From assembly GCF_000282115.1 (NCBI RefSeq), contig NZ_AKJY01000035.1, forward strand, positions 1-64,000: a DNA stretch of 64,000 bases, written 5' to 3'. Shown in pieces: positions 28,670 to 54,381 of the stretch. The notes under the pieces are model-generated. The model was not told where the DNA came from. It saw nothing but the letters and a program-made list of their open reading frames with translations, and searched no databases. The DNA is from Chryseobacterium populi. GTDB taxonomy: Bacteria; Bacteroidota; Bacteroidia; Flavobacteriales; Weeksellaceae. Made by a program: the position numbers and the translations under genes. Positions within the stretch are counted from its first letter, which is position 1; every line of letters starts with the position of its first letter.

Positions 28670-28834
28670 TTATAAAGGATCTATTACAGGCCTGCATTGC
28701 GGCTGTGCACAGCCTATTGATATTTTTCTGCAACCTCCGGTTGCAGGATTTATACAGTCTTCAAGACCGCCGGTAACGGTTCTCAACTGTTTTTTATTCA
28801 ATTTTTTTCCTTTGGGTAATTTTTGATTTTCCAT
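28670..28834 (-). CDS. Double-glycine leader peptide, bacteriocin-like (paralogue 1)
   Basis: A 54-residue peptide from the ATG at 28834; the open frame upstream lacks leader character. The leader MENQKLPKGKKLNKKQLRTV ends in TGG, the double-glycine cut site for a C39 peptidase/ABC exporter. The remaining 32 residues contain four cysteines (LEDCINPATGGCRKISIGCA, then QPQC), enough for two disulfides. A homologous gene lies 58 bp upstream on the same strand. No exporter or modification gene is adjacent, so function (antimicrobial, signal or other) is open. Confidence 0.7.
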   Translation of the reverse strand: MENQKLPKGKKLNKKQLRTVTGGLEDCINPATGGCRKISIGCAQPQCRPVIDPL

Positions 28835-28892
28835 GATAATAATTTTATGATTTGTTAATTTTTTTAATTGGCAAGTGGTATTTATCATTCAA

Positions 28893-29039
28893 TTAAGGTA
28901 TATACCGGCACTGTAATTCTGCACACTGGCGTCCATAGGCCATACATTGATTGGTATCAGGATCAATGCACATTTGTAGGCCACCTGTAATGGCTCTCAA
29001 TTGCTTTTTGCCCAGTTTTTTTCCGTTTTGATTTTTCAT
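28893..29039 (-). CDS. Double-glycine leader peptide, bacteriocin-like (paralogue 2)
   Basis: A 48-residue peptide. The leader MKNQNGKKLGKKQLRAITGG closely matches that of the neighbouring peptide (KKQLR followed by TGG). The mature part would be 28 residues with four cysteines in LQMCIDPDTNQCMAYGRQCA and ELQC. The C-x7-C-x6-C-x4-C spacing equals that of paralogue 1. The two form a tandem pair, probably one transcript, ending at the hairpin at 28624-28652. The gene is short enough to be missed by automatic annotation. Confidence 0.7.
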   Translation of the reverse strand: MKNQNGKKLGKKQLRAITGGLQMCIDPDTNQCMAYGRQCAELQCRYIP

Positions 29040-50564: not shown

Positions 50565-50637
<73 letters not shown>

Positions 50638-50644
50638 CTAAAGC

Positions 50645-50678
50645 AAAAAGAGAATCACATTGTGGTTCTCTTTTTTTA
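50645..50678 (+). terminator. Terminator of the initiator tRNA (duplicated sequence, copy 1)
   Basis: Stem AAAAAGAGAA with TTCTCTTTTT, inner CAC/GTG pairing, then a T-run. Bases 50645-50676 are identical to 52453-52484. Confidence 0.9.
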
Positions 50679-50732
50679 TTTTGCTGCATTAATCTGATCA
50701 GAAAAAATTGTCCTCAATCAAAACTTTAAAAT

Positions 50733-51851
50733 CTAATTAATATTTTCACTTAAAAAAATATTTAATTTTTCGGGAGAAATATCTTTTTTAATAATTTTCC
50801 CCGAAGAATCTAAGAGGAAATTACTGGGAAACTTATTTATCATATAATGTTTTGCTTTTATTCCATTTTCATCTAAATAATGAACCCAGTTCAACTGCTG
50901 TTCCTGAATAACCTTCTTCCATTTTCCCAGATCTTTTGTTCTGTCTGTAGAGATGTTTACAATTTCAAATCCTCTATATTTATATTGTGAATAGATTTCT
51001 CTATATGCAGGCATTTGTTCTAAACAAGGAGCACAGTAAGAAAACCAAAAATCAATGAGAGTATAGCTTTTTCCTAAAGTTGAAAGTATTTTTTTATTTT
51101 GAAAATTTAAATTGGGAAATGTATTTCCTAAAGCAGTTTTTTTTGCTTTTTTGAGATCGTTCTCAAAAATTAATCCAACAGAAGATTTTTTTATTGTAGG
51201 GTGTAAGTTATTGAAAATATTAAGATACTCTTGTTTAAATCCTTTCGATTCAAATTTCCCAACTATTTTCCAGAATAAAACGTAAGATTTTGGGATTTTA
51301 TTTGCCATATTTAATAATAAGGAATCCTCATGCCGGTCAAGAACTGCATAAAGCTCCTGCAAGCTGTCGATTGTAGGTTGCCCAACTTTATAATCTCTTT
51401 TATAAATATTATTCTGTATACTGTCTATCTTATTTTTCTTAAATAAATAGGAGGACAGATAGGTATTGTAATCATTTATCTCATGATAAGAACTATCATT
51501 TTTATCAAGAATGATTTTTTTAGTTTCCGAGTCAAATTTTATAATATTTGTGTGGTGTGAAATGTAAAAAAGCTCTGAAATGTCAAATACTTTATTTCTT
51601 TCAGTTTTAAATAAGAAGCGAAAAGGTAAAGGAATACTTTTACCATAACCCGGAATATTAAAGATATATTGTCCGCTATTTATTGTTGAAGAATCTCCGG
51701 CAAAATTTTTATAATACTTTTCATTATATAGACTTATTAATCTCAATGTTTTCTGATACTTATCATTAATATCTTTTCCAATGACTTTTCCTTGAGAAAA
51801 AGTATTTAAAGAAATTAAAATACTAAATAGTAAAAAGAAATTTCGTTTCAT
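50733..51851 (-). CDS. TlpA-like thioredoxin-fold disulfide reductase, exported
   Basis: The 372-residue protein has a signal peptide (FFLLFSILISLNTFSQ). A long N-terminal region (about 20-235) has no recognised motif. A C-terminal TlpA/AlkyI-hydroperoxide-reductase-like thioredoxin domain has the active site DFWFSYCAPCLEQ (Cys273, Cys276), cis-Pro in INKFPSNFLLD and IVNISTDRTK. It would reduce or rearrange disulfides in the periplasm. It lies 72 bp downstream of a small Cys-rich peptide gene on the same strand, a plausible substrate. Base composition is visibly more AT-rich than the neighbouring housekeeping genes. Confidence 0.85.
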   Translation of the reverse strand: MKRNFFLLFSILISLNTFSQGKVIGKDINDKYQKTLRLISLYNEKYYKNFAGDSSTINSGQYIFNIPGYGKSIPLPFRFLFKTERNKVFDISELFYISHHTNIIKFDSETKKIILDKNDSSYHEINDYNTYLSSYLFKKNKIDSIQNNIYKRDYKVGQPTIDSLQELYAVLDRHEDSLLLNMANKIPKSYVLFWKIVGKFESKGFKQEYLNIFNNLHPTIKKSSVGLIFENDLKKAKKTALGNTFPNLNFQNKKILSTLGKSYTLIDFWFSYCAPCLEQMPAYREIYSQYKYRGFEIVNISTDRTKDLGKWKKVIQEQQLNWVHYLDENGIKAKHYMINKFPSNFLLDSSGKIIKKDISPEKLNIFLSENIN

Positions 51852-51923
51852 TCAAAAGTTTTAAATAAAGTTACAAAGAAAGACTGTTGAATCTAACAGC
51901 CTCCCTTATTTTCTGAAATGTTA

Positions 51924-52124
51924 TTAGCAAAATCTTAGCTCATAACCCTCGTCACAGGCTCCTGCTCCTCCACATGGTCCGCAAGTGCCGGTTGTTTTAT
52001 TACAGCAATGCCATGAATCTCCATTTCCAATTCCATTACCGGGATAAATTTTGCCGGTAGATTGACCATCTGCTCCAATTATAGTTTTCAAATTTTTTCG
52101 CAATAATTTTTTTAGATTTTTCAT
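51924..52124 (-). CDS. Small Cys-rich bacteriocin-like peptide
   Basis: A 66-residue peptide. The leader MKNLKKLLRKNLKTIIGADG matches flavobacterial bacteriocin-like leaders (KNLKKL, Arg, LKTI), but the usual GG is replaced by GADG. The rest is Gly-rich with six cysteines (HCCNKTTGTCGPCGGAGACD and a final FC). A TlpA-like thioredoxin gene follows on the same strand. Together they look like a secreted disulfide-rich peptide and its oxidoreductase; that pairing is inference. The product is not assigned to a known family. Confidence 0.6.
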   Translation of the reverse strand: MKNLKKLLRKNLKTIIGADGQSTGKIYPGNGIGNGDSWHCCNKTTGTCGPCGGAGACDEGYELRFC

Positions 52125-52452
52125 AGTAAATAAATTTTAAATTAATAATTATTTGTGATTGCAATCAGTAGTAAGTATACAAAATAATTTTATTCACCAT
52201 AAAAGGAATTTTTGTTTTCTAAAACTTCGTAAATGTGTAGGATATGAGTAGAAAAAGGTGGTTGTTTATATTATAATATTTTCAGGGAAGCTTTAATTGG
52301 TTATTAATTTTAATCCGATCTTTTTGGATCGATTCCTTTTTCTTCAATCAATTTTGCAATTTTGAAAGCCCAACACTTAGATTTTTGTTAATGTTAAAAT
52401 GATTTTGTTATTTTTTATCTCAAATGAAGTTGTATTCAGAAATTCCAAATAA
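52125..52452. other. Noncoding region with a possible gene remnant
   Basis: On the minus strand a frame of about 25 codons ending at 52310-52312 encodes CWAFKIAKLIEEKGIDPKRS. It looks protein-like but has no start and nothing upstream, so it may be the 3' end of a lost gene. Otherwise the stretch is AT-rich and serves as upstream region of the peptide gene. Confidence 0.3.
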
Positions 52453-52486
52453 AAAAAGAGAATCACATTGTGGTTCTCTTTTTTAT
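52453..52486. terminator. Duplicated terminator, copy 2
   Basis: The same 32-bp hairpin sequence as downstream of the initiator tRNA, here between the peptide gene's upstream region and the end of the AhpD-like gene (minus, stop at 52513). It can terminate the AhpD-like transcript. Confidence 0.88.
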
Positions 52487-52512: not shown

Positions 52513-52965
52513 CTATCCGAACATTCCCACCTGGTAATCTCCCGGAACCTGTTGGAAGGCAATATTGAAACGGTTCCAGACGTTAATGGCATTCACCACT
52601 AAAGTAAGGTCAATGATCTCTTCTTCGGAAAACTGTTTTTTTGCATTTTCATAAGCTGTATCCGGAACATGGAGACTGTTCACTGCTTCTGCCCATTCCA
52701 GAGCTGCTCTTTCCCTGTCTGTATAATATGGAGTTTCTCTCCATGCACTCAGCCCGTAAAGACGCTGTTCTGTTTCGCCCATAGCACGAAGTTCTTTAGA
52801 ATGCATATCAAGGCAGTACGCACACTGGTTGATCTGGGATACCCTGAAATCAATAAGCTCCATCAGCTTTCTGTCAATAGTGGAATGCTTCAAATACTGA
52901 GTAATTCCAAAGATCGGAGTAATCGCTTTTTTCCCTTTTTCGAATAAATTAATTCTTGGTTCCAT
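52513..52965 (-). CDS. Carboxymuconolactone decarboxylase/AhpD-like protein
   Basis: The 150-residue all-helical protein has the AhpD redox motif CAYCLDMH (Cys48, Cys51, His55) and the conserved WAEAVNSLH and LTLVVNAINVWNRFN helices. AhpD-like proteins with CxxC reduce peroxidase partners or act as peroxidases. The match is to the alkylhydroperoxidase branch rather than true carboxymuconolactone decarboxylases. It is a single gene with no peroxiredoxin beside it. Confidence 0.88.
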   Translation of the reverse strand: MEPRINLFEKGKKAITPIFGITQYLKHSTIDRKLMELIDFRVSQINQCAYCLDMHSKELRAMGETEQRLYGLSAWRETPYYTDRERAALEWAEAVNSLHVPDTAYENAKKQFSEEEIIDLTLVVNAINVWNRFNIAFQQVPGDYQVGMFG

Positions 52966-53799: not shown

Positions 53800-54381
53800 C
53801 TACGGGGCAAGTTCTGCGTAAGGTCTAAGTTTAATATCCTCCGCCATGGTCTGGCCTAAGAATTCAGTTTTCTGATTTCCTTTCATTCTTCCTGCGGCAG
53901 CATTGGCATTGAAATAAGCTTCACTTAATTTAGTAGCAATTTCAGCAGGGTTGAAATCTATTTTTGTATCACCTTCAACACCTAAATACCCATTTTTTCT
54001 CGTGAGATAAGTGATATAGTTTTTATAATTGATCAGTGTATTTCTTAAATAGGTCGTATGGTATTCCATACATTTTTTTGCTTTTTTAGAAGAGTTGTTC
54101 AGAATACAGTTATTCATATTCCCTCTGTACAAACGCCATTCGGATTCCAAAATACCGTATTCTTTTCCTAAAGCGACTTTTCCGTTGGTAAGGATGTTAT
54201 TATCACCTTCTTTTGTAGCAATGGTTTGCAGGTGCCCGATTACAAGCGGAACGGTGTTTTCAATTTTGGTTTTCGTTTCTTTTAAAGAGCTGAAATCTGC
54301 AGCCGGAGAATTTTTCTTTTGAGCAGTTGTTACGTTAAAAATCAATAGTAATAGTACAATCAATAAATTATATCTTTTCAT
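53800..54381 (-). CDS. Secreted helical protein of unknown function
   Basis: The 193-residue product has a signal peptide (NLLIVLLLLIFNVTTAQ) and a mainly helical mature part. It includes NTVPLVIGHLQTIATKEGDN, a conserved-looking WRLYRGNMNNCILNNSSKKA with two cysteines, and a C-terminal KLSEAYFNANAAAGRMKGNQ. I do not recognise a family. It is a lone gene divergent from the BlaI/BlaR1-like pair. Confidence 0.6.
   Translation of the reverse strand: MKRYNLLIVLLLLIFNVTTAQKKNSPAADFSSLKETKTKIENTVPLVIGHLQTIATKEGDNNILTNGKVALGKEYGILESEWRLYRGNMNNCILNNSSKKAKKCMEYHTTYLRNTLINYKNYITYLTRKNGYLGVEGDTKIDFNPAEIATKLSEAYFNANAAAGRMKGNQKTEFLGQTMAEDIKLRPYAELAP

Follow-up and report, generated by a model that had tools for sequence, protein, structure and literature searches.

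A cysteine-rich leader peptide and TlpA-like oxidoreductase gene pair probably inserted at an initiator tRNA terminator in Chryseobacterium populi

INTRODUCTION

Bacteroidetocins are toxins of Bacteroidales for which a class IIf has been proposed. As outlined in the part of PMC6671954 used here, they are four-cysteine peptides made with a GG-type leader and accompanied by a thiol oxidoreductase and a C39 exporter. Section 7 of the same source reports that loss of the thiol oxidoreductase weakens toxin activity and that the enzyme does not protect. Synthetic bacteroidetocins made without a disulfide step are still potent in that account, which suggests that activity may not depend on disulfides.

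Here we describe a related arrangement in Chryseobacterium populi, in which genes for a six-cysteine leader peptide and a TlpA-like oxidoreductase lie between two identical terminators directly downstream of the initiator tRNA gene. We consider it probable, at roughly 0.65, that the pair was inserted at the fMet-tRNA terminator (T) with duplication of T and that it is a mobile peptide-plus-TlpA maturation unit using a shared exporter. In a literature search covering titles and the beginnings of abstracts, we recognised no description of such a peptide/TlpA pair, or of a terminator-duplicating slot, in Chryseobacterium.

RESULTS

An identical terminator on both sides of a two-gene insert

The window is the 64,000-nt stretch of contig NZ_AKJY01000035.1 that was analysed. 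The features of the locus are as follows.

50565..50638, + strand: initiator-type tRNA-Met (CAT), the anchor of the slot (ARAGORN)
50645..50676, + strand: terminator T, copy 1, the likely ancestral fMet-tRNA terminator; left flank equal to that of relative G107, core shared with G076, G058 and G107
50733..51851, − strand: TlpA/ResA-like thiol oxidoreductase, 372 aa (Pfam Thioredoxin_8; CAPC active site)
51876..51907, − strand: hairpin between the peptide and TlpA genes (z −2.93 for the stretch; 1 of 200 shuffles as good)
51924..52124, − strand: 66-aa six-cysteine peptide (NCBIfam NF047798, leader_Chryseo); core conserved in G050 and G088
52453..52484, no strand assigned: terminator T, copy 2, the likely duplicate, now 3' of the AhpD gene; right flank resembling those of G134 and G058
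52513..52965, − strand: AhpD/CMD-family gene, which bounds the slot on the right in 8 of 171 genomes of the genus, its own included

The two copies of T (50645–50676 and 52453–52484) are 32 bp long, 100% identical and 1808 nt apart. The preliminary description of this DNA had noted a hairpin after the initiator tRNA that recurs 1.8 kb on, exactly flanking the gene pair, and the identity indeed extends over 32 of 32 nt, including the loop and the same asymmetric mismatch. On the + strand the copies fold at −15.4 and −16.7 kcal/mol (z −5.7 and −7.2), in the manner of strong terminators. On the − strand they reach −11.8 and −12.1 kcal/mol, below the strength of the + strand, because one U-G pair becomes a C/A mismatch.

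T is the sole exact direct repeat of at least 20 nt in the 64-kb window at spacings of 41–6000 nt, words with fewer than three different letters being excluded from the scan. A search of the 4.48-Mb draft genome for its 21-nt core, allowing up to 3 mismatches, gives these two places only, and the same pattern read backwards gives 0 matches. The preliminary description had held that a terminator common throughout the genome would count against an insertion; with T present only twice, a genome-wide terminator family was rejected.

The insert itself (50677–52452) has a GC content of 27.5%, under that of every 1776-nt stretch of the window sampled in 100-nt steps (mean 35.6%, SD 2.5). The enclosed genes had been described as more AT-rich than their surroundings, and theirs is the most AT-rich stretch of the window. 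The TlpA-like ORF lies 72 bp downstream of the peptide ORF, and a hairpin similar to the one between them, GGCTGTTA.., is seen by eye in G050.

Six bases separate the end of the tRNA (50638) from T copy 1, and the repeat contains no tRNA bases. The insert ORFs include no integrase, recombinase or other mobility gene; its two genes are the leader peptide and the TlpA-like protein. Viewed as a transposon, the insert has no transposase among these two genes, and its 32-nt duplication is the whole terminator. Viewed as a tRNA-integrated element, it has a direct repeat (50645–50676) that excludes the tRNA 3' end, and no integrase. The earlier suggestion of classical integration at a tRNA 3' end is therefore not upheld: because the repeat lacks tRNA bases and the insert lacks an integrase ORF, the locus is not a classical tRNA-integrated island.

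The site in related species

All comparisons are between species. The stretch around the slot is matched in 170 of 173 genomes of the genus. Among the matches listed, the Sua5 gene and the tRNA are covered, and only the window's own genome (G000) matches the stretch at full length. Listed matches in neighbouring genes are only ~72–82% identical. Eight of 171 genomes, the window's among them, have a close AhpD gene (E ≤ 1e-50), and in the other seven too the gene lies after the tRNA; with the gene in so few genomes, direct comparison of the site rests on a small sample.

In two of these seven, G134 and G043, the whole interval from the last tRNA to AhpD measures ~70 and ~62 bp and contains exactly one hairpin; the G043 contig begins near the tRNA copies. 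This is the empty site with a single terminator that the preliminary description had predicted. Eleven further relatives were chosen because they carry T within 3 mismatches. Three of them, G076, G008 and G117, carry a single T and continue without an insert to the next backbone gene (window 53800–54381), whose own hairpin, the second at these sites, is unrelated to T. In the remaining relatives of the eleven, T is succeeded by other DNA or genes; within 5 kb, the backbone gene did not appear in G149 or G156. The single-hairpin sites in two species and the single-T, insert-free sites in three more favour the proposed insertion at the terminator, and it is not the case that all relatives carry both copies and both genes.

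The other five AhpD-bearing relatives have different DNA in the slot, as had been anticipated from the notion of further cassettes at the same place. The cargo consists of two genes in G046, G132 and G077 and of three ORFs in G040, one of which has a helix-turn-helix match below cut-off; G172 has 257 bp. By eye, a hairpin lies on each side of the cargo in all five, the two differing in sequence (the right one in G077 is imperfect).

The T core with up to 3 mismatches is found in 30 of 171 genomes, not always at the tRNA. An exact core directly follows the fMet tRNA in three other species (G076, G058 and G107), indicating that T is the old terminator of this tRNA; the second copy accordingly appears to have arisen by duplication during the insertion. 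On its left side, copy 1 has the same flank as G107. On its right side, copy 2 (..TTTTTTATTAAATCAATTCTAA) is flanked by DNA similar to that to the right of the single hairpins of G134 and G058. The locus thus reads as a single-hairpin site that was opened with duplication of T.

For each of 39 loci we scored how well the tRNA-proximal hairpin of that locus recurs further on, using 1.4 to 13 kb of downstream DNA per locus, scored to 9.5 kb at most. The window reaches 32/33 and G109 28/33, with the rest at or below 24/33. Variability of the slot is common and hairpin duplication rare (2 of 39 loci), the other 37 scored loci having no clear duplication. G109, which was picked because the T core search had already given two matches there, provides an independent example of the T-cargo-T arrangement; its cargo comprises three genes, among them a member of the Porph_ging (GLPGLI-type) family. 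Chance origin of the T repeat was rejected on these scores and because no other such repeat exists in the window.

Relatives have 1 to 7 tandem fMet tRNA copies, counted with a pattern for the tRNA 3' half, with small hairpin spacers; the window has one. In the G124 array (L038:2471-2697), one copy apparently stops before its 3' end, with another copy behind it. Long direct repeats ~1.9 kb apart, perhaps duplicated BlaR-type genes, lie downstream of the tRNA locus in L126, L137 and L140.

The six-cysteine peptide and its export

The 66-aa peptide consists of a leader ending in GA and a 48-aa core with CC and CGPC motifs. Its six cysteines could form up to three disulfides. The match to NF047798 is just above the cut-off of 23.5 bits (24.6 bits, or 25.8 in the genome search). 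This family is abundant in the window's genome, where 18 of 30 listed matches exceed the cut-off singly and one more does so with in-frame neighbours; the other 11 are weaker and uncertain. Matches were obtained in 2 of 14 control genomes, none of them exceeding the cut-off. A leader ending in GA is also present in four other leader peptides listed from the window's genome, and 23 of 26 listed cores (one of the 26 being a spurious frame) contain an even number of cysteines. Inspection of the region near the peptide start revealed no promoter of the TAnnTTTG type.

The peptide core occurs in 3 of 171 genomes. The other two, G050 and G088, carry it elsewhere, and the three cores share 25 invariant positions that include all six cysteines.

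The insert ORFs include no C39 ABC transporter and no multi-TM gene. The genome has one match to PF03412 (C39), on C111, away from the insert, in an operon that contains the C39 transporter, a GA-leader peptide, HlyD and a CAPC TlpA. As the pair brings no exporter, it would have to rely on this one C39 transporter.

Elsewhere in the window (28670–29039, − strand) lie two tandem short genes for GG-leader peptides with four cysteines each in the core. Their neighbours, both named by eye, are a ychF-like GTPase and an AraC-type regulator.

The TlpA-like protein and its association with leader peptides

The TlpA-like protein matches Pfam Thioredoxin_8 at 61.9 bits (cut-off 27) and, by eye only, has a hydrophobic N-terminus of Sec type. 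Solved ResA/TlpA relatives align over the C-terminal third of the TlpA profile. An AlphaFold model was set aside (mean pLDDT 58.5, three sequences).

That the peptide and oxidoreductase genes form a pair, as the preliminary description proposed, is borne out by their recurrence in G050, G088 and further loci. In each of the three genomes with the peptide core, a TlpA of the same kind adjoins it. A first search of 60 genomes with the window TlpA alone found a cysteine-containing leader peptide upstream in 5 of the 8 best other loci (L007–L014); the three peptide-less loci share an isochorismatase-type locus, and the stretches around all eight contain no tRNA. A TlpA profile was then built from eight peptide-bearing pairs; of 296 genomes belonging to the family, 29 match it at E ≤ 1e-45. 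At 30 loci, from 30 of the 31 listed matches, a leader peptide lies directly upstream of TlpA in 14; counting a GLPGLI-like gene between them, this becomes 16 of 30, and 11 of the best 11, top ranks that favour such pairs because of the way the profile was built. Once the seven loci whose proteins are profile rows are set aside, a leader peptide precedes TlpA by no more than 1.2 kb in 9 of 23. The order peptide, GLPGLI-like gene (by eye), TlpA is found in G123 and G126. There is no leader peptide within 700 bp, the range read, at 13 of the 30 loci, and none within 1.5 kb of TlpA at L171.

In the tree of 31 TlpA rows, the window protein groups with those of G050, G088 and G123 (100/100). The presence of an adjacent peptide changes at least 5 times by the starred branches; G123 and one G126 row were scored as peptide-less in these labels, before the wider reading of those loci. 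In G050 and G088 the pair, together with an HTH gene, lies between a DPP4-type peptidase and a POT-type transporter (flanking names by eye), a position at which the window's genome has a ParE-like toxin and a putative antitoxin (L188:902-1439). The pair therefore occupies different slots in different species.

HTH genes adjoin several of the pairs. A VKOR-type-looking protein follows TlpA in five loci by eye; Pfam VKOR matches confirm the assignment for one of these, the L013/L151 protein, and for the own protein of the window's genome on C61. In G047 the protein after TlpA is a VKOR protein by Pfam. The truncated L105 copy has no Pfam VKOR match. GLPGLI-type secreted proteins, a possible second type of partner, adjoin leader peptides at L066, L069, L071, L089, L149 and L152, assigned at L066 by TIGR01200 (144 bits) and at the others by eye.

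A search for the window TlpA among plasmids and phages gave no sign that they carry it: matches came from 15 plasmid and 2 phage records, all at <60% identity, with one plasmid place at >80% coverage and 24% identity. A role in anti-phage defence was also set aside (0 of 5 proteins matched PADLOC).

DISCUSSION

Insertion at the terminator

The species comparison best supports an original site in which the fMet tRNA and AhpD genes converged on a single two-way terminator T. A unit of ~1.8 kb would then have entered with duplication of one T copy, leaving T on both sides. Incoming DNA may have carried T beside the gene pair, as a circle or a fragment from transformation, and this T could have recombined with the chromosomal T by short homology, with no integrase of its own. 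We favour such short-homology recombination at T. Homology-facilitated illegitimate recombination, as introduced in PMC3240628, is a known process of this type.

The two terminators could instead predate the pair, which would then have replaced an earlier cargo with two hairpins by recombination through the flanks, the hairpins becoming identical by gene conversion. Such a history fits the five AhpD-bearing relatives, out of seven, in which hairpins flank a different or remnant cargo on both sides, and by eye the right-hand hairpins of all five start with AGAGAA (imperfectly in G077), as do two of the five left-hand ones (G040 and G077). However, the window copies are identical over 32 nt including the loop and the asymmetric mismatch, whereas the right-hand hairpins of the relatives differ in loop and upper stem, and single-hairpin sites exist; we consider this history unlikely. 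A decayed classical integrative element or genomic island at the tRNA 3' end, reduced to two genes, would account for an insert just downstream of the tRNA in a slot that varies within the genus. It is largely refuted by the boundaries of the repeat, which begins six bases from the tRNA and contains no tRNA sequence, and the insert has no mobility ORF, making this origin very improbable. Misassembly of two loci at the repeated hairpin is harder still to credit. The assembly is a draft of 119 contigs, and its single tRNA copy, in contrast to the arrays of many relatives, might reflect a collapsed array; but sequencing reads are usually longer than 32 nt, the length of T, and the order tRNA, slot, AhpD recurs in relatives.

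Insertion with duplication of T thus remains our preferred account of the locus. We also advance, tentatively and as a doubtful extension, the idea that in Chryseobacterium the terminator of the fMet tRNA acts as a permanent slot for exchange. The hairpin would provide the short homology by which small cargoes of peptide systems (leader peptide, GLPGLI, TlpA, VKOR) come and go between two terminator copies without an integrase of their own, and pairs of peptide and redox partner would be swapped as plug-ins that feed one shared C39 exporter. If so, the two terminator copies would keep both neighbours properly terminated.

A peptide and its redox partner

The peptide would be made with a GG/GA leader and then cut and exported by the one C39 (PCAT) transporter found, and the TlpA-like protein, presumably periplasmic, would form or correct its disulfides. 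By analogy with bacteroidetocins, the nearest precedent, the product is most likely an antibacterial peptide of bacteriocin type, and a maturation role of the TlpA-like protein is favoured over immunity. The protein might instead serve self-protection, reducing and thereby inactivating the peptide in the periplasm of the producer. ResA/TlpA folds with a CxPC motif often act as reductants, and in eight aligned pairs peptide types and TlpA types appear by eye to diverge together. Against this, a VKOR protein adjoins the pair in G047, a CAPC TlpA lies inside the exporter operon, and the bacteroidetocin thiol oxidoreductase, in the portion of PMC6671954 cited above, is no protector, its loss having weakened the toxin. 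A protective function therefore seems to us rather improbable.

The locus illustrates a route by which a genome could acquire an orphan bacteriocin-type gene, accompanied by its own redox partner, with neither exporter nor integrase, and the uninserted sites of relatives serve as controls. The leader_Chryseo peptides, many of them in the window's genome, become linked to partner genes of TlpA, GLPGLI and VKOR type, making their maturation testable.

Comparison with known systems

Like tRNA-associated genomic islands, the locus has variable cargo downstream of a tRNA; it differs in having no tRNA-derived repeat, no integrase and an insert of only 1.8 kb. The TlpA-like protein shares with the TlpA/ResA/DsbE oxidoreductases a Thioredoxin_8/AhpC-TSA domain with a CxPC motif, and differs from them by ~230 additional N-terminal residues that have no Pfam match. 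The window leader passes the curated cut-off of NF047798, leader_Chryseo, a 'bacteriocin-like protein' model that covers the 18-aa leader only and is silent on core, partner and mobility.

The comparison with bacteroidetocins is one of description rather than of aligned sequences, and draws on the part of PMC6671954 introduced above. The peptide here has six cysteines (four there), a CGPC core and a leader ending in GA. No exporter or five-TM gene lies beside the pair, so the adjoining C39 ABC transporter and multi-TM gene of bacteroidetocin loci are absent at the insert; the C39 exporter, the processing and export machine of bacteroidetocins, is proposed to play the same role here from its separate operon. 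The adjoining thiol oxidoreductase gene, a trait of most bacteroidetocin regions, is present as the TlpA-like ORF. Both systems, from the same phylum, thus join a short cysteine-containing leader peptide to a neighbouring thiol oxidoreductase gene.
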